Shown: piece after piece, positions 4,528 to 61,678 of the stretch
Layout of the letters: each line of letters starts with the position of its first letter
Position numbering within the stretch: position 1 is the first letter of the stretch
NCBI RefSeq assembly: GCF_001761325.1
Contig: NZ_CP017478.1
Span: forward strand, 2,687,501-2,751,500
DNA from: Urechidicola croceus
Lineage (GTDB): Bacteria; Bacteroidota; Bacteroidia; Flavobacteriales; Flavobacteriaceae
Length of the DNA stretch: 64,000 nucleotides
Direction: 5' to 3'
Made by a program: the position numbers and the translations under genes
The notes under the pieces: generated by a model
The model's database searches: none
Told to the model about the DNA's origin: nothing
What the model saw: the letters and a program-made list of their open reading frames with translations, nothing else

Positions 4528-5850
4528 ATGTTAGTATTAAAATTTGGTGGTACATCGGTTGGGTCAGTTGAAAACATGACTAATGTGAAAAATATTATCA
4601 AGACAGGAGGGAAGAAAATTGTAGTATTATCTGCAATGTCTGGAACAACGAATGCACTTGTTGAAATATCTGAAAATATTAAAAATGGTAAGACTGAAGA
4701 AGCTTTAAATGTTGTAAATAATCTATATAAAAAATACAACGAAACCGTAGACGAACTATTGAGTAGGTCAAATTTGAAGCAAGAAGTTGGAAATTATATT
4801 GATGGTGTTTTTGATTTTTTAATAACCTCAGTAGATGAGCCTTATTCTGAATTACTTTATAATAATATTGTTTCACAAGGAGAATTACTTTCAACTTATA
4901 TTTTTAGTCGATTCTTGATACAAGAAGGAATGAATGCTCGTTTATTACCAGCATTGGATTTTATGCGAATTGACAAGAATAATGAGCCAGACAATTTTTA
5001 TATTAAGCAAAATTTAAATCGAATTATTGATGAATCACTATCTGCGGATATTTATGTTACACAAGGTTTTATATGTTTAGATGCTGAAGGAGAAATTGCA
5101 AATTTACAGCGAGGAGGAAGTGATTATACAGCTACGATCATTGGTTCGGTTATAAATGCTGATGAGGTTCAAATTTGGACAGATATTGATGGCTTTCATA
5201 ATAACGATCCAAGATATGTAGAACATACACATGCAATTTCAAATATATCTTTTGATGAAGCAGCTGAATTAGCATATTTTGGTGCAAAAATATTACATCC
5301 TCAAACGGTAATGCCCGTTCGTGAATTTGACATTCCGGTAAGATTAAAAAATACCATGTCTCCAGAATCATCAGGTACTTTAATAACAAGTGAAATTCAT
5401 GGAGAAGGTATAAAAGCAATTGCGGCTAAAGACAATATTACTGCAATTAAAATTAAATCTGCTAGAATGTTACTAGCGCATGGTTTCTTGAAAAAAGTAT
5501 TTGAAATTTTTGAGAAATACGAAACTTCAATTGATATGATTACTACTTCTGAAATAGCAGTTTCTTTAACAATTGATGATGATACTTATTTAAATTCAAT
5601 TGTCGGTGAACTAGAAAAATTTGCTTCTGTTGAAGTTGATAATAAACAGAGTATCGTTTGTTTAGTTGGAAATGAAATTATTTATCACGAAGACACGCAC
5701 AAATTGTTTAAAGTTCTACAAGATGTAAAAGTGAGAATGATATCTTACGGTGGAAGTAAAAATAATATTTCACTATTGGTAAGTACTGAAAATAAATTAG
5801 AAACACTTCAAAAACTACATAGGTATGTTTTTGGAATGGTTACAGCATAG
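4528..5850 (+). CDS. lysC: Aspartate kinase (monofunctional)
   Basis: Catalyses ATP-dependent phosphorylation of aspartate, the entry step to lysine, threonine, methionine and diaminopimelate. The amino-acid kinase domain occupies about 1-285, with the KFGGTSVGS signature at 5-13, a RGGSDYTA motif near residue 200 and the FGAKILHP stretch characteristic of aspartokinases. The C-terminal 140 residues hold two ACT-like segments, the usual feedback site. No homoserine dehydrogenase domain follows, so unlike ThrA it is monofunctional. It is a single-gene unit between a divergent ACT-domain regulator gene and a bidirectional terminator. Which amino acid inhibits it cannot be read from sequence, so the symbol is by analogy. 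Confidence 0.93.
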   Translation: MLVLKFGGTSVGSVENMTNVKNIIKTGGKKIVVLSAMSGTTNALVEISENIKNGKTEEALNVVNNLYKKYNETVDELLSRSNLKQEVGNYIDGVFDFLITSVDEPYSELLYNNIVSQGELLSTYIFSRFLIQEGMNARLLPALDFMRIDKNNEPDNFYIKQNLNRIIDESLSADIYVTQGFICLDAEGEIANLQRGGSDYTATIIGSVINADEVQIWTDIDGFHNNDPRYVEHTHAISNISFDEAAELAYFGAKILHPQTVMPVREFDIPVRLKNTMSPESSGTLITSEIHGEGIKAIAAKDNITAIKIKSARMLLAHGFLKKVFEIFEKYETSIDMITTSEIAVSLTIDDDTYLNSIVGELEKFASVEVDNKQSIVCLVGNEIIYHEDTHKLFKVLQDVKVRMISYGGSKNNISLLVSTENKLETLQKLHRYVFGMVTA

Positions 5851-5902
5851 AGAAGAGGAGTGAATTTAATTTACATTCTTATTTTATATATTTTGGTTTA
5901 CA

Positions 5903-5932
5903 AAAAAAGGACGTTGAAAAACGTCCTTTTTT
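5903..5932. terminator. Bidirectional intrinsic terminator between lysC and aminopeptidase P
   Basis: A perfect 12-bp stem (5903-5914 with 5921-5932) has a GGACGT/ACGTCC core, a six-base loop, and A/T runs on both sides. It lies between two convergent genes, so it can serve both. Confidence 0.9.
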
Positions 5933-5939
5933 AATTAAA

Positions 5940-7232
5940 TTACTTGTTCATCAAGGCTTCAATTTCTTCAATTTCTAGAGGAATGTTTGCCATTAGATTT
6001 ATTGGTTCCCCTTTTTCTTGAATTACATAATCATCTTCTAAGCGTATACCCAAATTTTCTTCAGGAATATAAATACCTGGTTCAACAGTAAATACCATTC
6101 CTGCTTGCATTGGTTCGGTTAAAATTCCATAGTCATGTGTATCTAATCCCATATGATGAGATGTTCCGTGCATAAAATATTTTTTATATGCAGGCCAAGA
6201 AGGATCTTCATTTTTTATATCTTCTTTTGTTAATAATCCAAGTCCAATAAGTTCTTGAGTCATTAATTTTCCAACTTCAATATGGTAATCTGCCCATATA
6301 GTTCTAGGAACTAGCATTTTTGCAGCTGCTTTCTTAACACGTAAAACCGCATTGTAAACATCTTTTTGTCTGTCAGTAAATTTACCAGAAACAGGAATTG
6401 ATCGAGTCATATCACTTGCGTAATTTCCATAGCTAGAACCTACATCCATTAATATAATATCGCCATCTTTACACTGCTGATTATTTTCAATATAATGCAA
6501 TACATTAGCATTATATCCACTTGCTATAATTGGTGTATATGCAAATCCATTTGAACGATTTCTAGTAAATTCATAGATAAATTCAGCTTCAATTTCATAC
6601 TCCCAAACATTTGGCTTTGTGAAATTTAAAACCCTACGAAAGCCTTTTTCAGTAATATCACAAGCTTTTTGAATTAGTGCAATTTCTTCAGGCTCTTTTA
6701 TTGATCGAAGTCGTTGTAAAATGGGTTGACTTCTTAAATATGTGTGTGCAGGATATTTTTTCTTACACATTTTTATAAATCGGTCTTCACGAGTTTCAGT
6801 TTCAACATTTGATCTATAGTGTTCATTCGTATTTAAATAAACATTTTCAACTTGAGTCATTATTTCAAAAAGTACTTTGTCAAAATCTTTTAACCAAAAA
6901 ACACTTTTAATTCCAGAAGTTTCAAAGGCTTTTTCTTTTGTAAGTTTCTCACCTTCCCAAATAGCAATATGTTCATTGGTTTCTCTTAAAAATAAAATTT
7001 CACGATGCTCTTTTTTTGGAGCTTCAGGAAAGATGACAAGAATACTTTCTTCTTGATCAACACCACTTAAATAAAAAATATCTCGATGTTGAGCAAATGG
7101 TAAAGTGCTATCTGCACTAATTGGGTAGATATCATTAGAATTAAAAATCGCTAAAGAATTTGGTTTCATTTTAGAAGTAAATTTCTTGCGGTTTTTGATA
7201 AATAAATTATTGTCTATAGCTAAGTATTTCAT
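5940..7232 (-). CDS. pepP: Xaa-Pro aminopeptidase (aminopeptidase P, M24B)
   Basis: Removes N-terminal residues that precede proline, probably in the cytoplasm (no signal peptide). The N-terminal creatinase-like domain covers about 1-170. The C-terminal pita-bread metallopeptidase domain has all five dinuclear metal ligands in the usual motifs: Asp in LMDVGSSYGNYASDMTR (two Asp), His in MHGTSHHMGLDTHD, Glu in FTVEPGIYI and Glu in GIRLEDDYVI. The length of 430 fits the PepP family. Monocistronic, with a -7 box 26 nt upstream and a strong terminator downstream. Confidence 0.93.
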   Translation of the reverse strand: MKYLAIDNNLFIKNRKKFTSKMKPNSLAIFNSNDIYPISADSTLPFAQHRDIFYLSGVDQEESILVIFPEAPKKEHREILFLRETNEHIAIWEGEKLTKEKAFETSGIKSVFWLKDFDKVLFEIMTQVENVYLNTNEHYRSNVETETREDRFIKMCKKKYPAHTYLRSQPILQRLRSIKEPEEIALIQKACDITEKGFRRVLNFTKPNVWEYEIEAEFIYEFTRNRSNGFAYTPIIASGYNANVLHYIENNQQCKDGDIILMDVGSSYGNYASDMTRSIPVSGKFTDRQKDVYNAVLRVKKAAAKMLVPRTIWADYHIEVGKLMTQELIGLGLLTKEDIKNEDPSWPAYKKYFMHGTSHHMGLDTHDYGILTEPMQAGMVFTVEPGIYIPEENLGIRLEDDYVIQEKGEPINLMANIPLEIEEIEALMNK

Positions 7233-7257
7233 AAGTCTTAAATGTTCTATTTGACAA

Positions 7258-7265
7258 CAAAAGTA
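7258..7265 (-). promoter_or_regulatory. -7 box of aminopeptidase P
   Basis: The minus strand reads TACTTTTG, an exact TAnnTTTG match 26 nt upstream of the ATG at 7232. Confidence 0.5.
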
Positions 7266-7543
7266 TTGATTTGTTTACAAAAGAATAAAAATCATTATTA
7301 AAATTTATTTTTTAACAAAAAGTAAGCATTTGTTTAGAAAAACAAGAAGAGATTTTAGGTAAAACTACGTAGTTTAATAGTTGTGTTTTGATTGAAATGT
7401 AACTTTAAAAGAAGTTTGAAATTAATTTAATACTTATATTATACTGCATATCAATTTTTTAACTTCAAAGATAAAACCTATTTTAAAATGAGTATAAATT
7501 AAAGAAAACATTAAAATTGTTTATTCAAAATAAATGTAAGTAG
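7266..7543. other. Intergenic region between divergent pepP and sdhCAB
   Basis: A 344-bp gap (7233-7576) is the longest gene-free stretch in the window. It is very A/T-rich and holds the two divergent promoters at its ends. The middle has no open reading frame of note, no clear hairpin and no recognisable RNA gene. A region of this size before sdh could hold regulator sites, but I see no convincing inverted repeat. Confidence 0.6.
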
Positions 7544-7551
7544 TATCTTTG
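7544..7551 (+). promoter_or_regulatory. -7 box of the sdhCAB operon
   Basis: TATCTTTG matches TAnnTTTG exactly, 25 nt before the sdhC ATG. The nearest TTG (7517-7519) leaves a 24-nt spacer, slightly longer than the 17-23 usual in flavobacteria. Confidence 0.6.
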
Positions 7552-7576
7552 TTAGGTTAAAAAAATAATTCAAAAA

Positions 7577-8254
7577 ATGAGCGGACTTTTATCCTCGTCA
7601 ATAGCAAGAAAAGTAGCAATGGCACTTTCGGCTTTTTTCTTAATGTTTTTCTTACTACAACATTTTGCAATAAATATATTATCAGTTTTCAGTCCAGACA
7701 CTTTTAATGAGGTGTCCCATTTTATGGGAACAAATCCATTGGTACAGTATGCATTACAACCAGTTTTATTATTTGGTGTAATATTTCATTTTGTTATGGG
7801 TTTTGTTTTGGAACTAAAAAATAGAAGTGCAAGAACTGTAAAATATGCCAAAAATAATGGTGCGGCAAACTCTTCATGGATGAGTAGAAATATGATTTTA
7901 AGTGGAATCGTTATTTTACTTTTTATGATTTTACATTTTATTGATTTTTGGATTCCAGAATTGAATACAAAATATATTCAAGGAGATATGTCTGGTTTAT
8001 TGGCTGATGGCGAAGGTTTCAGATATTTTGAAGAATTACAACATAAATTTGTTAGTCCAATTAGAGTAGGAGTATATGTTTTAGCATTTGTGTTTTTAGC
8101 ATTACATTTATTACACGGATTTAACTCAGCTTTCCAATCAATGGGAGCAAATAATAAATATACGCAAGGATTGAAAAATTTTGGAAAAGCTTATGCAATT
8201 ATAATTCCATTAGGATTTATTTTCATCGCATTATTTCATCATTTTAATCATTAA
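7577..8254 (+). CDS. sdhC: Succinate dehydrogenase cytochrome b subunit
   Basis: Membrane anchor of succinate:menaquinone oxidoreductase (complex II). At 225 residues with five predicted membrane spans (about 13-38, 57-80, 105-125, 155-180, 200-222) it is the single-subunit, B-type anchor that carries two hemes, so no sdhD is needed. His residues within the spans (for example in LLQHFAIN, VIFHFVMG, LHFIDFW and LHLLHGF) are the likely heme ligands. First gene of sdhC-A-B; sdhA follows after 9 nt. Confidence 0.92.
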   Translation: MSGLLSSSIARKVAMALSAFFLMFFLLQHFAINILSVFSPDTFNEVSHFMGTNPLVQYALQPVLLFGVIFHFVMGFVLELKNRSARTVKYAKNNGAANSSWMSRNMILSGIVILLFMILHFIDFWIPELNTKYIQGDMSGLLADGEGFRYFEELQHKFVSPIRVGVYVLAFVFLALHLLHGFNSAFQSMGANNKYTQGLKNFGKAYAIIIPLGFIFIALFHHFNH

Positions 8255-8263
8255 AAATAAGGT

Positions 8264-10270
8264 ATGACAACATTAAATTCAAAAGTACCTAAAGGAGATA
8301 ACCTTTCAGAAAAGTGGTCAAAATACAAAGAACACATTAATCTTGTAAACCCTGCAAACAAACGTAATATAGATATTATAGTTGTTGGTACTGGTTTGGC
8401 AGGAGGTTCTGCTGCTGCAACTTTAGCAGAGTTAGGGTATAATGTAAAAGCATTTTGTTATCAAGATTCACCTCGTAGAGCACATTCTATTGCTGCTCAA
8501 GGAGGTATTAATGCAGCAAAAAATTATCAAGGAGATGGTGATTCTAACTACAGGTTGTTTTATGATACTGTAAAAGGAGGTGATTATCGTTCTCGAGAAG
8601 CAAACGTACATCGTTTGGCTGAGGTTTCTGGAAATATTATTGATCAATGTGTTGCACAAGGAGTACCATTTGCAAGAGATTATGGAGGCCTTTTAGACAA
8701 TCGTTCATTCGGTGGAGTGTTAGTTTCTCGTACTTTTTATGCAAAAGGTCAAACAGGTCAGCAATTATTATTAGGAGCATATTCAGCAATGAACCGTCAA
8801 ATAGCTCGTGGGAAAATTACGATGCACAACCGTCATGAAATGTTAGACGTTGTAAAAGTTGGGGGTAAAGCAAGAGGAATTATTGCTCGTAATTTAATTA
8901 CAGGTGAAATAGAACGTCATTCAGCACATGCTGTTGTTATTGCTTCTGGTGGATATGGAAATGTATATTTCTTATCTACAAACGCAATGGGTTCTAATGC
9001 TACTGCAGCATGGAAAATTCATAAAAAGGGAGCGTATTTCGCAAATCCTTGTTATACTCAAATTCACCCTACATGTATCCCACGAAGTGGAGATTATCAG
9101 TCTAAATTAACTTTGATGTCAGAGTCATTGCGTAATGATGGACGTATTTGGGTGCCTAAAAATATTGAAGATGTAAAAGCAATTAGAGAAGGAAAATTAA
9201 AACCAACTCAAATTGCTGAAGAAAATAGAGATTATTATTTAGAGCGTCGTTATCCAGCATTTGGTAACTTAGTACCTCGTGATGTTGCTTCAAGAGCAGC
9301 AAAAGAACGTTGTGATGCTGGTTATGGAGTAAATGCAACAGGAGAAGCTGTGTATTTAGATTTCGCTTCCGCAATTCAACGTTACGGAAAAGAACAAGCT
9401 AAAATTCATAATATTAATAATCCTTCTGAGAGTAAAATTTTAGAGTTAGGAGAAGCAATTGTTGAGGCAAAATACGGTAACTTATTTCAAATGTATGAAA
9501 AGATTGTTGCCGAAGACCCTTATAAAACACCGATGATGATTTATCCAGCAACTCACTATACAATGGGAGGAGTTTGGGTTGATTATAACTTAATGACTAC
9601 TGTTGAAGGGTTGTATTGTATTGGTGAAGCAAATTTCTCTGATCACGGTGCTAATAGACTTGGAGCATCTGCATTAATGCAAGGATTGGCCGATGGTTAT
9701 TTTGTATTACCATATACAATTGGAGATTATTTAGCAGATGATATTCGTACTGGAACTATTTCAATAGATTCAAAAGAGTTTGATGATGCAGAAAAAGAAG
9801 TTAAAGAAAGATTAGATTTCTTTATCAATAATGAAGGAACACATTCTGTAGATTATTACCACAAAAAATTAGGTAAGATCATGTGGGAAAAATGTGGAAT
9901 GGCTCGTAATAAAAAGGGATTAGAAGAAGCAATTCAAGAAATACAAGAAGTGCGAGAAGATTTCTGGAAGAATGTAAAAGTTCCTGGAAGTTTAAATGAA
10001 TTCAATCAAGAATTAGAAAAAGCAGGTAGAGTAGCAGATTTCTTAGAATTAGGAGAATTATTCGCAAAAGATGCTTTAAATCGTGAAGAATCTTGTGGAG
10101 GACATTTCCGTGAAGAACATGTTACAGAAGATGGTGAAGCAAAACGTGATGATAAGAATTTTGCATATGTTGCAGCATGGGAATACACAGGGAAACCAAG
10201 TGAAGCAATTTTACATAAAGAACAATTAGAATTTAAAGATATTGAGTTAAAAACTCGTTCATATAAATAA
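8264..10270 (+). CDS. sdhA: Succinate dehydrogenase flavoprotein subunit
   Basis: Oxidises succinate to fumarate at a covalently bound FAD on the inner face of the membrane. The 668 residues include the Rossmann [17 protein letters not shown] motif near residue 43, the FAD-linking histidine in [11 protein letters not shown] near 72, and the substrate-site segments around TQIHPTC and RLGASALMQ. The length matches the Bacteroidetes/epsilonproteobacterial non-classical type rather than the shorter E. coli SdhA. Middle gene of the operon, 9 nt after sdhC and 10 nt before sdhB. Confidence 0.97.
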
Positions 10271-51684: not shown

Positions 51685-52254
51685 TTAAAACCGTTTACCA
51701 ATTATAATGTTAAAAGTTAAATCAGTTTCTGGTATTAAACCTCTTACATCTCCTGTTTTATATATTGACTTGCTATATCTAATATTTGCATCAATATAAA
51801 TATTGTTTTTGAAGATATGTTTATAACCAATACCAATACCAACTCTAATATTATGATAATCTCCATCATAATCATATAGAGGTGCCGTATCGGTATTATA
51901 AACTCGTCCCCAACCATATTTTGCAAAAGCTTCGATATAAAAGCCAGATGTATGCTTTTCAGAAAAGTAATGTCTATAATTAAAATCAATTCCTAAGGTT
52001 TCATGATATTGATTTCGATTTCTGAAATTCTTATTTTCTGGAAATAAATAAAGTGTAGAACCGATACTATTAGATTCATTTAATAGATAGTTATAGGATA
52101 ATTTGACTTTCCGATTTTGTACTAGACCTAGAACGTCAAATCCTATCTCATGTTTTGGTTCTGTTTCTTTTATATCCTCATTTGTATTCTGCGCGCTTAT
52201 TATTGAAGTAAAAAAAATGGTTACAACAATAAATATAATTTTAAGTTTTTTCAT
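51685..52254 (-). CDS. Small outer-membrane beta-barrel protein, paralog 1
   Basis: 189 residues with a signal peptide ending near ISAQ (22). The body is beta-rich: NYLLNESNSIGSTLYLFPE, the NYRHYFSEKHTSGFYIEAFAKYGWG segment, GIGIGYKHIF, and a final GKRF. It is clearly related to the next gene on the right (about half the residues match by eye) and more distantly to the third. Resembles DUF3575-type outer-membrane proteins. Function unknown. It follows paralog 2 by 20 nt in one operon. Confidence 0.78.
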   Translation of the reverse strand: MKKLKIIFIVVTIFFTSIISAQNTNEDIKETEPKHEIGFDVLGLVQNRKVKLSYNYLLNESNSIGSTLYLFPENKNFRNRNQYHETLGIDFNYRHYFSEKHTSGFYIEAFAKYGWGRVYNTDTAPLYDYDGDYHNIRVGIGIGYKHIFKNNIYIDANIRYSKSIYKTGDVRGLIPETDLTFNIIIGKRF

Positions 52255-52274: not shown

Positions 52275-52859
52275 TTAAAATCGTTTACCAATAGAAATAC
52301 CAAAATGAGGTTTTACATTCGGAATAGAATATTCACTATTTGAATCAATTGAGTTTATAATTGTCCTACTGACTTTAAAATTACCTTCTATAAAGAAGTT
52401 TCTTCTTGACACATATTTATAGCCAATACCAAAGCCAACTTCTAATTCATGATATCTTTTAAAATCATCGGGATTATAGTTAAAACTATTTTGATCTTGT
52501 TTAAATCCTTTACCATAATTGTATTTTGCTAATGCTTCTATATAAAAGCCTTGAGCATACTTTTTTGAAAAATAGTGTTTGTAATTTATATCTACTGAAA
52601 AATTTTCTTGATATCCTTCAAAATCATAAAAGTCATCATTGTCAGGGAAAAAGAAAATATTTGTTCCGATACTTTCTGATTCGTTTAATAGGTAGTTGTA
52701 AGAAAATTCGATTTTTTTGTAAGCAATTAATTCAGCAATATCAAATCCAACTTCGTGTTTTGGCTGTTTTTCTTCAGGTTTTTCATTTGAATTTTGAGCG
52801 TTTAATGTCATAGTTGTTAAACTAATAAATGCGATTAAAGTAATTTTAATTTGTTTCAT
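52275..52859 (-). CDS. Small outer-membrane beta-barrel protein, paralog 2
   Basis: 194 residues with a signal peptide ending near LNAQ (22). It shares with its neighbour the KHEVGFDIAELI start, NYLLNESESIGTNIFFFPD, YKHYFSKKYAQGFYIEALAKYNYG, GFGIGYKY and the C-terminal SIGKRF. It is the first gene of the pair. A -7 box lies upstream at 52888-52895. Confidence 0.78.
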   Translation of the reverse strand: MKQIKITLIAFISLTTMTLNAQNSNEKPEEKQPKHEVGFDIAELIAYKKIEFSYNYLLNESESIGTNIFFFPDNDDFYDFEGYQENFSVDINYKHYFSKKYAQGFYIEALAKYNYGKGFKQDQNSFNYNPDDFKRYHELEVGFGIGYKYVSRRNFFIEGNFKVSRTIINSIDSNSEYSIPNVKPHFGISIGKRF

Positions 52860-53021: not shown

Positions 53022-53543
53022 TTAAAATCTTTTACCTATAGAAATTCCGCCTCTAAAAAAGCCTTCGGGAGAATAATCGCTAAATCCTAAAACTCGACCT
53101 CCACCAGCAAAAATTTCTAAAATAAAACCATTGCTATTTACCCATTTCTTACCAATTGCTATACCTATAGCAGCATCAAAATAATTATTATCTTCATTTT
53201 CTACTTCATAAAAAAGATCGTCAGTACCAAAAGAGAATTTGGTAAAACCTTCTACAAACAATCCTTTTGCTCCATAATCTTCTTTATTGAAAAAATACAT
53301 TCTATAAAAAGGTGTAATTGAAAATTTTTCAAAATAAATATCACTTTCCCGTGGATTGATTAGTAATGAAATTCCATATCCTGATGATTTTTTATTTACA
53401 TTCTCATAACTAACTTCAATTATGGTTGCAAATGCAAGTTTGGCTCCATCGATTTTAACTTCATGATTGAACTCATTAGTTTTTTCTTGAGCAAATGTTG
53501 AAATTCCGACTAGTAATAAGGTAATTAAGGTAATTTTTTTCAT
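53022..53543 (-). CDS. Small outer-membrane beta-barrel protein, distant paralog 3
   Basis: 173 residues with a signal peptide ending near STFAQ (19). It shares with the two other paralogs the layout (short signal, NHEVKIDGAKLAFA, FYRMYFFNKEDYGAKGLFVEGFTKFSFG, and GGISIGKRF at the end). It lies alone behind a terminator, upstream of the pair. Function unknown. Confidence 0.76.
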   Translation of the reverse strand: MKKITLITLLLVGISTFAQEKTNEFNHEVKIDGAKLAFATIIEVSYENVNKKSSGYGISLLINPRESDIYFEKFSITPFYRMYFFNKEDYGAKGLFVEGFTKFSFGTDDLFYEVENEDNNYFDAAIGIAIGKKWVNSNGFILEIFAGGGRVLGFSDYSPEGFFRGGISIGKRF

Positions 53544-53681: not shown

Positions 53682-55658
53682 TTAGACTAAATATTTGTCT
53701 TTATAACTGAGTAGTCTTAGGGCATTAAGAACTACAACGATTGTTGATCCTTCGTGGAAAAGTACAGCCAAACCAATGTTGGTCAAACCTAAGATAGTTA
53801 CAGGAACTAATAAAGCAACAACTCCCAAACTTATCCATATATTTTGTTTAATTATTCGTTTAGATTCTCTACTTAATCCTATTACAAATGGAAGGTTTTC
53901 AATTTTATCGGACATTAAGGCTACATCAGCGGTCTCTAGTGCAACATCACTTCCTGCTGCTCCCATAGCAACACTTACTGTACTTAATGCCATTGCAGGA
54001 GCATCATTTACACCATCACCAACCATTGCAATTTTACCATCACGATTTAATAATTCTTGAATTGCTGCGACTTTATCTTCTGGCAGTAAATTTCCACGAG
54101 CTTCGGTAAGACCTATTTGTTTGGCAATAGTATTTCCAACATTTTGATGATCACCTGTAAGCATTATCATATGCTTAACACCGATTTTTTTTAATCTTTG
54201 CAAAGTGCTAGTTGCGGTTTTTCTTGGAACATCCATTACGCTTATCAAACCAATGATATTGCTTTTATATGCTACTATCATTACTGTATGACCGTTTTGA
54301 AGCAGCGTTTCCATTTGTTCAAGAATTGATTTCGAAACATAAATATCTTGACTTTCCATAAGTTTCACATTACCAATGAAGATTTGATTTCCATTGTAGT
54401 CGGCACTTATTCCTTTTCCTTGAATTGCATTTACATTGGATGCTTTGTTTAATGGTTTAATGTTATATTGAGTTTTTAGATCCTTAGATATTGCTTTTGC
54501 CAAAGGATGATTACTCAAACTTTCAACTTCAAGTACTAATTGAACAAATTCTTTTTCATCAAAATCATCAATAGGAATTACATTGGTAAGTTTTGGTTTA
54601 CCTTCTGTAAGCGTTCCTGTTTTATCAAAGGCTATTGTGTTTATTGTTCCTAAATCTTCTAATGCTTTTCCTCCTTTAATCAATACTCCTTTTTTGGCGG
54701 CTCTAGCAATTCCACTCAAAACAGCACTTGGAGTTGATATTGCTAATGCGCATGGACTTGCTGCAACCAATACTGTGATTGCTCGGTAAAGACTTTTATC
54801 AAAATTTTCATCGATTACTACATAAGCGAAACACAATGTAAAAACAACGATTAGAACAATTGGAACATACCATTTTTCAAATTTTTTAGTCAATCGTTGG
54901 GTAGGAGATTTATGGGTTTCTACTTCACTTACCATCTTAACTAGTCGAGATACAGTTGAGTCAACACTTAGTTTTAGTACCAATACTTCAATACTATTAT
55001 CTCCATTAATAGTTCCAGTAAATACAATATGATTTTTATCTATTTCATTGAATTTTGGCAAATTATGGGTATTTGGAATAGCGGTTTTATCAACTGGCAT
55101 ACTTTCGCCAGTAATTGGCGCTTGATTGATACTACTATTTCCTTTTACAATAACACCATCTGCAGCAATTTTAGAATTTGGTTTTATAACAATAGTATCA
55201 TTTATTTTTAAATCATGAATGTCAATTTCTTCAATCGTTCCATTTTTTTTAATAAATGCAGTTTTAGGAGATAATTTACCTAATGCCTCAATAGATTTTT
55301 CGGCTTTTCCCATAGCATAATTTTCCAAAGAATGCCCTAAGCTAAAAAGAAATAAAAGCAGTGAGCCTTCACCTACACTTCCAATATATGCTGCTCCTGC
55401 TGCTGCAAGAATCATTAGGAAGTCAATTTCAAATTGCCCTTTTGTAATTTTTTCAAAGGCTTCTATTAGTGCATAATAACCTCCAAAAACATAACCTAAA
55501 CCATAACTTACAATACTTACATATTCAGGATAATTTGTGAACTTTTGGATTATAAACCCAACTAGTAAAAAAATCCCACTTAAAATCGCAAAAATGAGTT
55601 CCGATTTTTCTCCAAATATGCCTGAATGATTATGAGACTCTTCTTTATTATGACTCAT
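53682..55658 (-). CDS. P1B-4-type heavy-metal-exporting ATPase
   Basis: 658 residues. There is no N-terminal CxxC metal-binding domain, only a short His-containing tail (HNHSG near 9-13). The P-type core is complete: TGES (183-186), DKTGT with phosphorylated Asp345, and GDGVND near 560. The metal-path motif is SPC (301-303), with HEGST (635-639) in the last span. SPC plus HEGxT is the signature of the P1B-4 group, which moves Co2+, Fe2+ or Zn2+ rather than Cu+. It would pump metal from the cytoplasm to the periplasm. Last gene of the efflux operon, 53 nt after the adaptor gene. Confidence 0.9.
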   Translation of the reverse strand: MSHNKEESHNHSGIFGEKSELIFAILSGIFLLVGFIIQKFTNYPEYVSIVSYGLGYVFGGYYALIEAFEKITKGQFEIDFLMILAAAGAAYIGSVGEGSLLLFLFSLGHSLENYAMGKAEKSIEALGKLSPKTAFIKKNGTIEEIDIHDLKINDTIVIKPNSKIAADGVIVKGNSSINQAPITGESMPVDKTAIPNTHNLPKFNEIDKNHIVFTGTINGDNSIEVLVLKLSVDSTVSRLVKMVSEVETHKSPTQRLTKKFEKWYVPIVLIVVFTLCFAYVVIDENFDKSLYRAITVLVAASPCALAISTPSAVLSGIARAAKKGVLIKGGKALEDLGTINTIAFDKTGTLTEGKPKLTNVIPIDDFDEKEFVQLVLEVESLSNHPLAKAISKDLKTQYNIKPLNKASNVNAIQGKGISADYNGNQIFIGNVKLMESQDIYVSKSILEQMETLLQNGHTVMIVAYKSNIIGLISVMDVPRKTATSTLQRLKKIGVKHMIMLTGDHQNVGNTIAKQIGLTEARGNLLPEDKVAAIQELLNRDGKIAMVGDGVNDAPAMALSTVSVAMGAAGSDVALETADVALMSDKIENLPFVIGLSRESKRIIKQNIWISLGVVALLVPVTILGLTNIGLAVLFHEGSTIVVVLNALRLLSYKDKYLV

Positions 55659-55711: not shown

Positions 55712-56839
55712 CTATTCTCCCATCAACATAAAACCACCAATAGTCAACACTTTTTTATCTTTTAAATCAATTGTGTTTAAAATTTCAATATAATCTTCAG
55801 ATTGTTTTCCGACTTCCACTTTTGTTTTATCAAAAGTATATTTATTTTCTTTTTGATTATTTAGAACTAATGTATAATAGTTTCCATCAATTTCAGTAAT
55901 CGAATTTTTAGGAAGTGCTAGGCTATTTTTAGATTTCGTGATGATATTAGCATCTACAAACATTCCTGTTACAAAATTCGTGTTTTCATCATCTTGAATA
56001 TGTCCATGAACTTTAATAGTTCTGTTTTTTTCATCAATAGAGGTTCCAACCAAATGAACTTCTGCTTTAAAAACGTCATCGGACGCTTCTGGAATTTTGA
56101 AATTAATAGTTTGATCTTTCTTAATTTTTAAAATGTCTTTTTCAAAAACGGATAATTCTAAATGAATATGATCTGTATTTACAATTTCAATAATTCCTTC
56201 CGAAGGAGAAACATAACTACCATTACTCACATTCACTTTTGTTACAAATCCTGAAATAGGAGCATAGATATTAATTGTTGATGAGATTTTTCCTTGCTCT
56301 ACAGAAGTTGGATTCAAATTCATCATTTTTAATTTTTTACGCAATCCATTATAATGGGCAAGAGAACTTTTATAAGTACTTTCTGCTTTTAAATAATTTT
56401 TTTGCGAAGTAATTTTTTCATTATATAATGTTTGTTGTCTTTCAAATTCAGATTTTAAATAATTCAATTGCTCAGCAACTTCTAAATATTGCTGCTGAAT
56501 TTCTATAAATTCGGTGTTTTCAAGTGTTACAACAAGTTGACCTTTTTTGACTTTATCTCCAATTAATAAAGGAGTTCTCTTAATAAAACCACCGATGAAA
56601 GTGCTAATACTTGCTTTGTTTTGAGGAGGAACATCAATAAAACCATTGGCTTTTACAATTTCATCAAAAGATTGATCTGTAAGTGTTCCTAATTCCATTT
56701 TTTCAGATTCAAATTGAGACTGAGTTACTGTTATTATATTGTCATTAGAAACTAGATTAACTTCTGACTCTGTATTCTTTTCTGACTTTCCACAAGATAC
56801 TAGTACAAGTGAAAAAAGGATGATATATATATGTTTCAT
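55712..56839 (-). CDS. czcB: Periplasmic adaptor (membrane fusion) lipoprotein of an RND metal pump
   Basis: 375 residues with a lipoprotein signal (Cys16 after SLVLVS). The hairpin helices (about 110-175) sit between the two halves of a lipoyl domain (about 75-105 and 190-225: INIYAPISGFVTKVNVSNGSYV), followed by a beta-barrel domain. It bridges the inner-membrane RND pump and the outer-membrane channel. It starts 10 nt after the RND gene. The symbol is by context with the Czc-type RND motif. Confidence 0.9.
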   Translation of the reverse strand: MKHIYIILFSLVLVSCGKSEKNTESEVNLVSNDNIITVTQSQFESEKMELGTLTDQSFDEIVKANGFIDVPPQNKASISTFIGGFIKRTPLLIGDKVKKGQLVVTLENTEFIEIQQQYLEVAEQLNYLKSEFERQQTLYNEKITSQKNYLKAESTYKSSLAHYNGLRKKLKMMNLNPTSVEQGKISSTINIYAPISGFVTKVNVSNGSYVSPSEGIIEIVNTDHIHLELSVFEKDILKIKKDQTINFKIPEASDDVFKAEVHLVGTSIDEKNRTIKVHGHIQDDENTNFVTGMFVDANIITKSKNSLALPKNSITEIDGNYYTLVLNNQKENKYTFDKTKVEVGKQSEDYIEILNTIDLKDKKVLTIGGFMLMGE

Positions 56840-56849
56840 AACTATTCTT

Positions 56850-59800
56850 TTATAAAATTAAATGGTTTATTGCAATAACTGTTTGGTTGTAAAGCTGTAA
56901 ATTATCTAGGTAATTTAATTCAATATCTGTAGCGGTTTCAATGCTTTGTATATATTGAAAAAAGTCAATTTCACCGTGTTTAAAACTGCTTTCGGCTGTT
57001 TTTATAATTTCTTTTGACAAATTTTCACCTTGAGAATCATAATAATTTATGGACGCTTCATGTTGTTGAAGTTTTGCTAAAAGCATATTGTATGCTGCTG
57101 CTAGTTTGGTTTTATAATCATTTTCTTGTTCTTCAATAATTTGCCTTGATATTTTTGAGGCTTTAATTTTTGATGATTTTCCACCAAACAGCAAGGGAAT
57201 TTTAATTCCGAATTGATACCCTCTAATATTGTCATTCAAAGAACTGTTGGTGCCTTGAAAATATTGAGCGTTTAAATCTGGAAGTAACTGCTGTTTTTCT
57301 AGTTTGTATAAGGCATCATAATAGGTCTTTGAGTTTTCAAAATATTGCAATCCAATATTATCTTCCTTTGAAAAAGTATTTAACGGAATTTTTTCTAAAG
57401 GAATAGTTGCAATTGAAAAACTATCAACTTGAACAATTTTTTTAAGTTGTTCATAGTATAAAACGACTTCTTGTTGTGCTTGATTGAACAAGGTCTGTAG
57501 TTGCTTTTGTTTTGATTGTGCAGTAATCATTTCTAAATAATTAGTTTCACCTAATTCAAATTTTCTTTTGGCTGAATGCGCAAAATTCTGATACAAACTA
57601 TCTAAAAACTGATACGTTTTTACTTTGTTTTTAGCATACATCAAATCATAATAAGACAAATAAACGTCTCTTTTTAATTCCTCTAATTTGATATTATAGT
57701 TCGACTGTTCAATGGTGTTTTTAGCAATAGTTACTTTTTTATTGGCAGTATAAACCGTTGGGAATTTAAAATCTTGTTGAATTCCAAAGACGTTTAGTGG
57801 TTCATTGTTAATTGCTAAATTACTTTCGTCACGATTGTAATAGATTGTTGTTTTATCAAAATCAAAAGCACTTCCAATCAATGCTTCTGATTCATCCACT
57901 TTTAAAGCGAATGCTTTTAAACCTGTATTATTTTCAATGGCTAACGCTACTGTTTCTTCAACGGTTAATGTATTATGTTGAGCGTTCATCGAAAAAGAAA
58001 TCAAAAGAATAATTATAGATGCAATTCCTTTTTTAGAAAGTTTAGTTTGTTTTGCTTCAAACCAAGCATATAAAACAGGAAGTACTACCAATGTTAAAAT
58101 AGTTGCTGTCACCAAACCGCCAATAACAACAGTTGCTAAAGGACGTTGAACTTCTGCTCCTGCATTTGTAGAAATAGCCATTGGCAAGAAACCAAGTGCA
58201 GCAGCAGCAGCCGTTAATAAAACTGGACGTAATCTTTCAGTTGTGCCTTTAATAACACGTTCTTTTATATCCATAATTCCATCTTCTTTAAGTTCTTTAA
58301 AATGCTCGATTAATACAATTCCGTTTAACACTGCAATTCCAAAAAGGGCAATAAATCCAACTCCTGCTGAAATACTAAAAGGTAATCCACGAATCCATAA
58401 TAAAAGAATTCCACCTACTGCAGATAACGGAATTGCGGAGTAAACCATCAATGCTTCTTTAACCGAATTAAACGCGAAATACAATAAAATAAATATCAAT
58501 ACCAACGCAATAGGAACAGCAACAAGTAATCTCGCTTTGGCACTTTGTAAGTTCTCAAATTGACCTCCATAGGTAATATTATATCCTGTAGGAAGTTTTA
58601 AATCTCGTTCAATAATTGTTTGCACATCATCTACAACAGATTGTAAATCCCTATTTCTTACATTGATTCCTACAACAATCCTACGTTTGGTATCATCTCT
58701 TGAAATTTTTGCAGGACCTTTAGTGTATGATATTTCAGCTAATTCGTTTAGCGGAATTTTTATTCCAGATGGTGTGTCTACATATAAGTTTTGAAGACTT
58801 TCTAAATTCACACGATGTTGAGTGTCCAGACGCAATACCAAATCAAATCGTTTTTCTCCTTCAAAAACATTTCCAGCAGATTTACCTGCAAATCCCATAG
58901 AAACCAATTCATTTAAATCGGCGATATTCAATCCATAACGTGCAATTTTACTTCGGTTATAGTTCACACTCATTTGAGGTAAACCTTCTACTTTTTCAAC
59001 AGTAATATCTGATGCTCCTTCTACATTTTTAATCAACTCTTTTATTTCATCAGCCTTAGAACTTAAAACAGTCAAATCTTCACCAAAAATTTTAATAGCA
59101 ACATCGGCACGAACTCCAGTAATTAATTCATTGAAACGCATTTCAATAGGTTGTGTGAATTCGACTTCCATTCCAGGAATAATTGCTAAGGCTTCTTTAA
59201 ACTTATCGGCCAATTCATCTTTATTTTTTGCAGATGTCCATTCACGTTTTGGTTTTAATTTAATGATGACATCGGCTTCTTCCATCGACATTGGGTCGGT
59301 TGGAACTTCTGCAGCACCAATTCTACTAACTACTTGATCTACTTCTGGGAAATTATCCAACAGAATTTGCTCAATTTTTGTAGTGATTTCAATGGTTTTA
59401 CTAAGTGAAGTACCCGTTTTTAAAACTGGCTGAATCACAAAATCTCCTTCATCTAATGTTGGAACAAATTCACCACCCATTCTACTAAATAACCAAAGGC
59501 TTGAAGTCAATAAAACAATAGAAAGCGATACAACTATTTTTTTATTAGACAACGCCCAATTAATAACTGGTCGATACCACTTAGTCAGTTTTTTCATCAA
59601 TCTGATAGAAGTATTTTTATCACTTTGTTTAGATGGTTTTAAGAATAGTGAAGAAACAACAGGGATGTATGTCAAACAAAACAGCATTGCACCAATCAAA
59701 GCAAAACTAAATGTCAACGCCATAGGTTTGAACATTTTTCCTTCAACACCACTTAAAGATAAAATAGGTATAAATACTATTAAAATAATAAGTTGTCCAA

Positions 59801-61163
59801 AAATAGCAGAATTCATCATCTTGGATGAACTTTTTAAAGTAATAGCATCGATTTCTACTTGCCTTTCTGTTTTGGAAAGTGAAGTGATATTGGCACTTTG
59901 AGACATAATCCTAAAGGCAATAAATTCAACAATGATTACCGCTCCATCAATTATGATTCCGAAGTCAATGGCTCCTAAACTCATTAAGTTAGCATCAATT
60001 CCAAAAATATTCATAAATGAAATTGCAAATAATAAACTCAATGGAATTACTGACGCTACAACCAATCCTGAACGTAAATTTCCTAGTAAAAGCACCACAA
60101 CAAATATCACAATTAACGAACCTAAAATTAAATTCTCTGCAACTGTAAAAGTTGTTTTCCCAATTAATTCGCTTCGTTCTAAAAATCCGTTGATATACAC
60201 ACCTTCAGGTAGTGTTTTTTGAATTGAGGTAACTCGTTTTTTAACAGCATCAATAATTTTTTTAGAGTTACCATTTTTCAACATCATTACCTGGCCAAGG
60301 ACTTTTTCACCTTCACCGTTTCCCGTAATTGCACCAAATCGAGTTGCACTTCCAAAACCAACTTTTGCAACATCTTTTATGTAAATTGGTAATCCATTAT
60401 TAGATGTAACAACGATATTTTCTATATCATTTAAAGAAGTAACCAATCCTTCACCTCGAACGAAAAACGCTTCATTTGTTTTTTCAATATATCCACCACC
60501 AGCAACACTATTGTTTTGTTCTAATGCTGTATAAATATCAGAAACAACAATATTCATTGCTTTCAATTTTTCAGGATTGATGGCAACTTCGTATTGTTTT
60601 AAAAATCCTCCCCAAGTATTGACTTCAACTACTCCTGAAATTCCGGAAAGTTGGCGTTTGACAATCCAATCTTGAATAGTTCTAAGTTCTGTTGCAGAAT
60701 ATCGATTTTCGTATCCTGGTTTTACATCCAATATATATTGGTAAATTTCTCCCAATCCAGTGGTTATTGGACCCATTTCTGGTGTTCCAAAATTTGCTGG
60801 AATTTTTTCGGAAGCCGATTTTATTTTTTCGGCAATTAATTGTCTTGGTAAATAAGTTCCTAATTTATCCTCAAAAACGATTGTTACTACAGATAAACCA
60901 AACTTTGAAACGGAGCGTATTTCTACAACTCCAGGTAAGTTGGCCATTTCCAATTCGACAGGATAGGTAATAAATTGTTCAACATCTTGAGTAGACAAGT
61001 TTCTTGATGTAGTAATAACTTGTACTTGGTTATTGGTAATGTCTGGAACGGCTCCAATAGGTATTTTTGTTATGGAATAAATTCCGAAACCAATAATAAA
61101 GGCTATAAATAAAAGAATAATAAGTTTATTCTTTAAACTGAATTTTATAATATTTTCTAACAT
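56850..61163 (-). CDS. czcA: Czc-type heavy-metal RND pump fused to a TolC-like channel
   Basis: 1437 residues in two parts. Residues 1-1040 are a full HME-family RND pump with 12 spans (first at 12-31). The TM4 segment D400-F-G-x3-D406-G-A-V has the charge pattern of Czc/Cnr pumps for Zn, Co, Cd or Ni; Cu/Ag pumps usually have DAAIVMIEN. After the last span and a basic KLSKKG linker (1041-1046) comes a hydrophobic stretch ending SMNAQ (1058-1062), just like a flavobacterial signal peptide, then an OEP/TolC-like domain (1062-1437) with two coiled repeats. The channel may thus be released by signal peptidase. A fused channel like this is common in Bacteroidetes. The gene starts 72 nt after the His-rich protein. 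Confidence 0.93.
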   Translation of the reverse strand: MLENIIKFSLKNKLIILLFIAFIIGFGIYSITKIPIGAVPDITNNQVQVITTSRNLSTQDVEQFITYPVELEMANLPGVVEIRSVSKFGLSVVTIVFEDKLGTYLPRQLIAEKIKSASEKIPANFGTPEMGPITTGLGEIYQYILDVKPGYENRYSATELRTIQDWIVKRQLSGISGVVEVNTWGGFLKQYEVAINPEKLKAMNIVVSDIYTALEQNNSVAGGGYIEKTNEAFFVRGEGLVTSLNDIENIVVTSNNGLPIYIKDVAKVGFGSATRFGAITGNGEGEKVLGQVMMLKNGNSKKIIDAVKKRVTSIQKTLPEGVYINGFLERSELIGKTTFTVAENLILGSLIVIFVVVLLLGNLRSGLVVASVIPLSLLFAISFMNIFGIDANLMSLGAIDFGIIIDGAVIIVEFIAFRIMSQSANITSLSKTERQVEIDAITLKSSSKMMNSAIFGQLIILIVFIPILSLSGVEGKMFKPMALTFSFALIGAMLFCLTYIPVVSSLFLKPSKQSDKNTSIRLMKKLTKWYRPVINWALSNKKIVVSLSIVLLTSSLWLFSRMGGEFVPTLDEGDFVIQPVLKTGTSLSKTIEITTKIEQILLDNFPEVDQVVSRIGAAEVPTDPMSMEEADVIIKLKPKREWTSAKNKDELADKFKEALAIIPGMEVEFTQPIEMRFNELITGVRADVAIKIFGEDLTVLSSKADEIKELIKNVEGASDITVEKVEGLPQMSVNYNRSKIARYGLNIADLNELVSMGFAGKSAGNVFEGEKRFDLVLRLDTQHRVNLESLQNLYVDTPSGIKIPLNELAEISYTKGPAKISRDDTKRRIVVGINVRNRDLQSVVDDVQTIIERDLKLPTGYNITYGGQFENLQSAKARLLVAVPIALVLIFILLYFAFNSVKEALMVYSAIPLSAVGGILLLWIRGLPFSISAGVGFIALFGIAVLNGIVLIEHFKELKEDGIMDIKERVIKGTTERLRPVLLTAAAAALGFLPMAISTNAGAEVQRPLATVVIGGLVTATILTLVVLPVLYAWFEAKQTKLSKKGIASIIILLISFSMNAQHNTLTVEETVALAIENNTGLKAFALKVDESEALIGSAFDFDKTTIYYNRDESNLAINNEPLNVFGIQQDFKFPTVYTANKKVTIAKNTIEQSNYNIKLEELKRDVYLSYYDLMYAKNKVKTYQFLDSLYQNFAHSAKRKFELGETNYLEMITAQSKQKQLQTLFNQAQQEVVLYYEQLKKIVQVDSFSIATIPLEKIPLNTFSKEDNIGLQYFENSKTYYDALYKLEKQQLLPDLNAQYFQGTNSSLNDNIRGYQFGIKIPLLFGGKSSKIKASKISRQIIEEQENDYKTKLAAAYNMLLAKLQQHEASINYYDSQGENLSKEIIKTAESSFKHGEIDFFQYIQSIETATDIELNYLDNLQLYNQTVIAINHLIL

Positions 61164-61235: not shown

Positions 61236-61625
61236 TTATGTGAATAGTGGTGGATGAAAAACGGAAGGTTTTTCAAAACTAGAAGACGATTCTTTGTAGA
61301 AAAAATTTGAAGGAATTGTTAAAATTGGCTGTGAACCAATTTCGAAATAAATTTTATTAAAAGTAAAAGCAGTATTTACATGTGCACAAGTTTGATGCTT
61401 GTGTTTAAATGGCAAATCCTCATGTTCTTTATGATCATTTTGATGTTGTGCAATTTCATCACCATAATGTTCTGATAAAAACTCGAAAAAACTATCACCA
61501 TATGTTTCTTGGTGATAATCAGCATGTTCCAATAAGACATTTAGTTTTGAAAGATCTTCAAAACTAATGTTAAAACTCTGTACAAGAATTAAACTTGAAA
61601 ATAATATGGAGATTAACTTTGTCAT
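61236..61625 (-). CDS. Small His-rich exported protein heading the metal-efflux operon
   Basis: 129 residues from the ATG at 61625. A signal-like hydrophobic start (LISILFSSLILVQSF) is followed by a His/Glu/Asp-rich core (residues about 34-83: LEHADYHQE, EHYGDEIAQHQNDHKEHED, FKHKHQTCAH), which could bind Zn, Co, Ni or Cu. A TTG 12 bp upstream is inside the -7 box, so the ATG is the true start. Proteins of this size often precede Czc-like pumps in Bacteroidetes; the role (metal buffer, sensor or chaperone) is not known. First gene of the operon. Confidence 0.75.
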   Translation of the reverse strand: MTKLISILFSSLILVQSFNISFEDLSKLNVLLEHADYHQETYGDSFFEFLSEHYGDEIAQHQNDHKEHEDLPFKHKHQTCAHVNTAFTFNKIYFEIGSQPILTIPSNFFYKESSSSFEKPSVFHPPLFT

Positions 61626-61634
61626 ATTGAGTAA

Positions 61635-61678
61635 CAAATTTAATATAAATAATTACATTTTAACGTAACATAAGTTAC
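61635..61678 (-). promoter_or_regulatory. Promoter of the metal-efflux operon with a nearby inverted repeat
   Basis: The minus strand -7 box TAAATTTG (61635-61642) is an exact consensus match ending 9 nt before the ATG at 61625. At 61665-61678 a perfect dyad GTAAC-ATAA-GTTAC lies where the -33 region would be, a possible operator for a metal-responsive regulator. No regulator gene is in view. Confidence 0.5.

Follow-up and report, generated by a model that had tools for sequence, protein, structure and literature searches.

How can one polypeptide supply both a pump of the inner membrane and a channel of the outer membrane? The question is raised by a gene of the flavobacterium Urechidicola croceus that lies in the stretch of 64,000 nucleotides analysed here (contig NZ_CP017478.1, positions 2,687,501 to 2,751,500; in the following the window). 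A frame of 1437 codons, open from ATG at 56850-61163 on the minus strand, encodes a Czc-type pump of the resistance-nodulation-division (RND) type and behind it a TolC-like channel. In the Czc and Cus systems the channel is the product of a separate gene and carries its own N-terminal signal. We propose that the linker between the two parts is an internal signal peptide which is cut by signal peptidase I (SPI) between Ala1061 and Gln1062, freeing the channel to the outer membrane, and from the sequence evidence we consider this very probable. The gene is composed as follows (window coordinates):

58056..61163, minus strand: RND heavy-metal pump domain, residues 1-1036, with 12 hydrophobic segments (TIGR00914, ACR_tran, hydropathy)
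58026..58052, minus strand: basic n-region of the putative internal signal peptide, residues 1038-1046 (KQTKLSKKG), without ATG, GTG or TTG (sequence)
57990..58025, minus strand: hydrophobic run, residues 1047-1058 (IASIIILLISFS) (hydropathy, sequence)
57981..57989, minus strand: c-region MNA, residues 1059-1061, predicted cut after Ala1061 (matrix score 25.8 at Gln1062)
56853..57980, minus strand: predicted mature outer-membrane channel, residues 1062-1437, 376 amino acids (PF02321, structure model, TolC/SilC/CusC matches)

The fusion of a complete pump and a channel in one frame, which an earlier note on this DNA had read from the sequence, is real and more than chance; TIGR00914, PF02321 and the channel model all confirm it. 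Residues 1-1045 form a complete Czc-type pump that matches TIGR00914 (CusA/CzcA heavy-metal RND transporters) over its full length with 1187.6 bits against a curated cut-off of 701.45 and thus belongs to the heavy-metal RND family. Pfam ACR_tran covers residues 5-1035, among solved chains ZneA and CusA score best, and after merging of overlapping windows the hydropathy profile has the 12 segments of a twelve-span pump within residues 1-1036 and a 13th in the linker. The motif DFGIIIDGAVIIVE at residues 400-413 resembles the Czc-type motif, the metal substrate being a prediction. All 12 NCBIfam models that match the fused protein describe RND-type transporters only, and the C-terminal part is recognized by Pfam OEP (PF02321, 73.1 bits, cut-off 22). 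Residues 1062-1437, modelled from 59 aligned sequences, have the TolC-family fold (predicted local distance difference test, pLDDT, 92.8), with TolC, SilC and CusC as best Foldseek matches (TMq 0.75-0.81 in the leading rows); the 44 PDB matches at E <=0.001 are by their titles all outer-membrane efflux channels or complexes containing one. With OEP over its cut-off and a TolC fold, the channel is a member of the outer membrane factor (OMF) family and would be expected to form a trimer in the outer membrane. In a second model (residues 812-1437, pLDDT 81.4) confidence is low at residues 1055-1063, which would fit a flexible cut site and proves nothing.

The linker reads A1037-KQTKLSKKG-IASIIILLISFS-MNA-Q1062, and the residue number given for the Gln in the earlier note is correct. 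The strongest sequence argument for an internal signal peptide, which that note did not use, is the Q-rule: in Bacteroidetes most proteins cut by SPI then begin with a Gln, and this Gln is converted to pyroglutamate by glutaminyl cyclase (PMC5837995, PMC10653852). The linker has the features of a Q-rule substrate, namely a basic n-region, a hydrophobic core and a small residue followed by Gln, and the signal peptides of neighbouring genes in the window end alike (SIISAQ, LNAQ, TFAQ). A frame of 530 codons in the genome matches the signal peptidase I family. The orientation would also be suitable: 12 segments leave the C-terminus of the pump in the cytoplasm, so that segment 13 with its basic N-terminal flank is expected to be N-in/C-out.

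The organism's own signal peptides provide a scale on which the linker can be measured. From the window and 400 kb of the same genome 400 open reading frames (ORFs) were called mechanically. In 87 of these, among them the focal pump by virtue of its first helix, the sequence opens with a basic segment and a hydrophobic run that is not closely followed by another span. The run leads into [AGSTC]Q in 54 of the 87 and into a lipobox-like cysteine in 14, and 19 have neither. Using a position matrix built from the 54, the linker scores 25.8 at Gln1062, and nine of the 54 true signals score as high (leave-one-out); when the Q column is omitted the linker scores 21.0 and again 9/54 are as high. The linker ranks first of 93,653 internal positions in the 400 ORFs, the runner-up reaching 12.1 and none of the remaining 93,652 positions coming near it, within a sample that comprises 464 kb of the 3.43-Mb genome and not the fused paralogue, so that the result is not genome-wide.

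The same pattern is found in relatives. A search of 296 genomes of the phylum returned relatives in 294 at E <=1e-50, and part of the listed places was fetched. From 116 pumps readable to the end, the own-genome duplicates L040, L041 and L042 were removed and the distant split pump L005 was left out of the tree, which leaves 95 fused proteins (94 complete; L045 ends at a contig end) and 17 split ones. Together, the 95 represent 81 genomes and 19 family codes. In 92 of them [AGSTCV]Q follows the most hydrophobic 12-mer of the linker. The chance rate, taken from random 23-mers out of these proteins, is 0.30, and after hydrophobic segments inside the pumps the motif is found in 97/869 (0.11). The net charge ahead of the run is likewise positive in 92/95. 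Two of the three fused proteins without the Gln, L117 and L119, retain ASA and AHA sites. When the 92 linkers are anchored on the Gln, which makes it invariant by construction, only three other columns between -26 and +24 have a residue shared by at least half of the linkers, namely A at -1 (64), L at -10 (46) and L at -9 (47). In an alignment of 21 fused proteins that was not anchored, Q1062 is the sole invariant column between 1032 and 1130.

A second collection, made up of the 80 best loci among at least 588 relatives, gave the same result: all of the 79 that could be read to the pump end are fused, and the motif is present in 78 of them; L173, which ends LQA-R, lacks it. It should be noted that these sequences are related and the counts therefore not independent events, although the Q column stands out strongly from the columns around it. 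Fused pump-channel genes are common in the phylum, as the earlier note had stated and both collections bear out, and U. croceus itself has a second fused gene with 51% identity to the focal one. One member of the second collection, L213 (record Glaciecola amylolytica, CP034120.1, match 5001-9332), is a full-length fused gene (49% identity; linker NAFS|QEP) whose record bears the title of a complete chromosome of a gammaproteobacterium; a transfer is likely, or else the record is mislabelled.

Relatives in which pump and channel are split indicate what the linker corresponds to. Twelve split loci fall within the large fused group of the tree described below. In 11 of them a channel frame lies no more than about 250 bases from the pump stop; the stretch fetched for L050 showed none. 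Ten of these 11 channel genes have [AGSTCV]Q after the N-terminal hydrophobic run, L052 being the exception. For example, the fused L099 and L045 read KDK-MKFSKK, the split L051 starts MKFSNYHKK, and all three continue into AQE. The linker thus occupies the position at which split relatives have a true N-terminal signal peptide. In L044, L052 and L058 the ATG of the channel frame overlaps the pump stop as ATGA, as it does in the Cus-type pair of U. croceus itself, whose channel starts MRYIILIIFVFFAFAEVNAQ; judged from these overlaps, some pump/channel gene pairs are one frameshift away from fusion. The pump of the latter pair is:

L144 5640-10657, plus strand: Cus-type pump of U. croceus, listed with 1267 codons (sequence)

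In a tree of the 112 pumps there are at least eight changes between fused and split, seven of them forced by starred branches. The earliest branches are the outgroup and three more split lineages, and five split copies lie within a fused group, which suggests early fusion and later splits; the tree is from a quick search, long branches meet at its root, and the change counts cannot separate gain from loss. We also considered that a relic of the channel's start codon was kept in some fused relatives, where an ATG directly precedes the signal, but Met occurs in 67 of 168 distinct linkers as compared with 62.5 expected, which is not significant (z 0.7). A feature apart is found in the split channels of L046, L047, L048, L049 and L062, which have a common stretch (FANFA..LRTLRL or similar) between start codon and hydrophobic run that makes their signal peptides unusually long and has the look of an inserted repeat.

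Several observations weigh against an internal signal peptide. When the Q column is left out, the first helix of the pump itself reaches 18.7, not far from the 21.0 of the linker, and the training set of the matrix was selected by the [AGSTC]Q pattern. Met at -3 is not the small residue of the textbook, though the own-genome matrix favours Met there. The linkers of some fused relatives score low in this matrix (median 12.8, lowest -4.2), and the case for them therefore rests on the motif count; one relative, L106, has no clear cut site. The Q-rule has been reported as not valid across the whole FCB group, and yet five of the 79 loci of the second collection have the Q and are not placed in the Bacteroidota by their titles (Chlorobiota, L157; Ignavibacteriota, L159; Balneolota, L171; Pseudomonadota, the Glaciecola locus L213 mentioned above; and one unresolved). 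Recent transfer or mislabelled bins or records would explain the Q in these loci, and one or the other would be needed.

What if the chain is not cut at all? The linker would then be an ordinary 13th span, for which its run is hydrophobic enough, and the channel domain would work tethered to the pump; cleavage itself is, after all, something that we infer. However, no role is known for a Gln at +1 of a span that stays uncut, and its retention in 92/95 and 78/79 fused proteins points to cutting. Moreover, the first channel helix begins at mature residue 7 in the model of residues 1062-1437, and about seven residues would have to bridge the distance between the inner membrane and the channel equator, which in known pump assemblies is well over 100 angstroms. 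An uncut tether would be hard to build over such a distance, and we regard it as very unlikely. Equally in need of consideration is translation of the channel from a start inside the gene, the fused product being minor. Of 92 fused linkers, 64 do have an in-frame ATG, GTG or TTG ahead of position -12, and this is where the channel begins in several split relatives, but the other 28, the focal one included, have none of these codons between the pump end and the hydrophobic run. In the focal gene the nearest such codons are the ATG of Met1059 and a TTG that lies within the run, and its signal can therefore not come from internal initiation. Nor are the n-regions enriched in Met (67/168 against 62.5 expected). 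The chance that the channel is made in this way appears to us slight indeed.

In view of the ATGA pairs, which are one frameshift short of fusion, one could suspect that faulty sequencing or a recent mishap in this strain produced the fused frame. With fused relatives in 81 genomes of 19 family codes and at 79 further loci, and with a second fused gene in the same genome (51% identity), this can practically be dismissed. The internal signal peptide claimed in the earlier note is, by comparison with these explanations, supported on the level of sequence by the own-genome score, the conservation of the Q, the charge pattern, the signals of the split genes, the lack of a start codon and the short spacer.

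With an internal signal peptide the following course can be envisaged. The single gene would give rise to a precursor of two proteins. After insertion the C-terminus of the 12-helix pump would face the cytoplasm; the basic linker, together with the hydrophobic run, would then act as an N-in/C-out signal that directs the C-terminal part through the Sec channel. SPI would presumably cut after Ala1061, and the exposed Gln1062 would be expected to become pyroglutamate as in other exported proteins of Bacteroidetes. The freed channel of 376 residues (computed mass 43.4 kDa, that of the full-length product being approximately 160 kDa) would assemble in the outer membrane and join the adaptor encoded next door. 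The spent signal would probably stay on the pump as a 13th helix unless it is trimmed. Pump and channel would be made 1:1. The assembled Cus complex has 3 pumps, 6 adaptors and 3 channels, and 1:1 would therefore be the ratio found there. One can go further and think of a polyprotein used throughout the phylum, with an obligate single chain, an SPI cut that sets the ratio, a channel kept by its own pump until assembly and a retained signal that works as a 13th helix; this extended scheme we find doubtful as a whole.

The system shares with CzcCBA and CusCBA a pump (TIGR00914) and an adaptor (TIGR01730) over their cut-offs and a TolC-fold channel matching CusC and SilC, but differs in that there is one frame with the putative signal inside, whereas pump and channel genes are separate there. 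With Q-rule substrates the linker has in common the basic stretch, the hydrophobic run and [A/S]-Q at the cut, and its score is within the range of the 54 own-genome examples; the difference is that the focal signal is found at residues 1038-1061 behind a 12-helix pump rather than at the N-terminus. In kind the phenomenon is not wholly new. FbcH of Bradyrhizobium is a precursor of cytochrome b and cytochrome c1 that is parted at an internal signal peptide, and here, too, two proteins are found in one frame with a predicted signal peptide between them. In both cases a multi-span membrane protein and an exported partner share one chain; however, both products of FbcH stay in the inner membrane. 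In the present case the second product is a channel of the outer membrane, and fusions of this kind are spread across a phylum. In the openly licensed literature, which leaves most subscription journals outside, we found no description of the pump-channel fusion, of its processing or of the join as a conserved Q-rule signal peptide, and word searches in the two Q-rule papers (PMC5837995, PMC10653852) brought up no passage on internal signals in RND proteins.

A tripartite pump must match its inner-membrane pump to its outer-membrane channel, and a fused precursor that is cut would, if the proposal is true, be a simple and widespread means of doing so. SPI would then gain a class of internal substrates that are missed by annotation and by predictors focused on the N-terminus. 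The proposal also predicts exact pyroglutamate peptides, which for the focal protein would be pyroGlu-HNTLTVEETVALAIENNTGLK.

The fused gene is followed on the minus strand by the adaptor and then by a heavy-metal P-type ATPase. Small His- or Cys-rich ORFs with a hydrophobic N-terminus are located directly upstream of both fused pumps and of a Cus-type pump of the genome. These genes are:

55712..56839, minus strand: periplasmic adaptor (RND membrane-fusion protein), 375 amino acids, lipobox-like N-terminus LVSC (TIGR01730, 144.7 bits, cut-off 94.9; HlyD_D23)
53682..55658, minus strand: heavy-metal P-type ATPase, same gene row (TIGR01525, 566.5 bits, and TIGR01512, 486.9 bits, both over cut-off)
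Window 61236-61637, minus strand: small His/Cys-rich ORF upstream of the focal fused pump (no NCBIfam, no Pfam match)
L040 8602-8913, minus strand: small His/Cys-rich ORF upstream of the second fused pump (no NCBIfam match)
L145 7662-8084, minus strand: small His/Cys-rich ORF upstream of a Cus-type pump (HYC_CC_PP, NF047658, 110.8 bits)

Beside the metal genes the window carries at 51685-52254, 52275-52859 and 53022-53543 (minus strand) three adjoining genes for exported proteins of 173-194 amino acids. None of the three has an NCBIfam match, and the latter two also have no Pfam match. They have Q-rule signal peptides and similar C-termini (..IGKRF), and by sequence they look like a small duplicated family.

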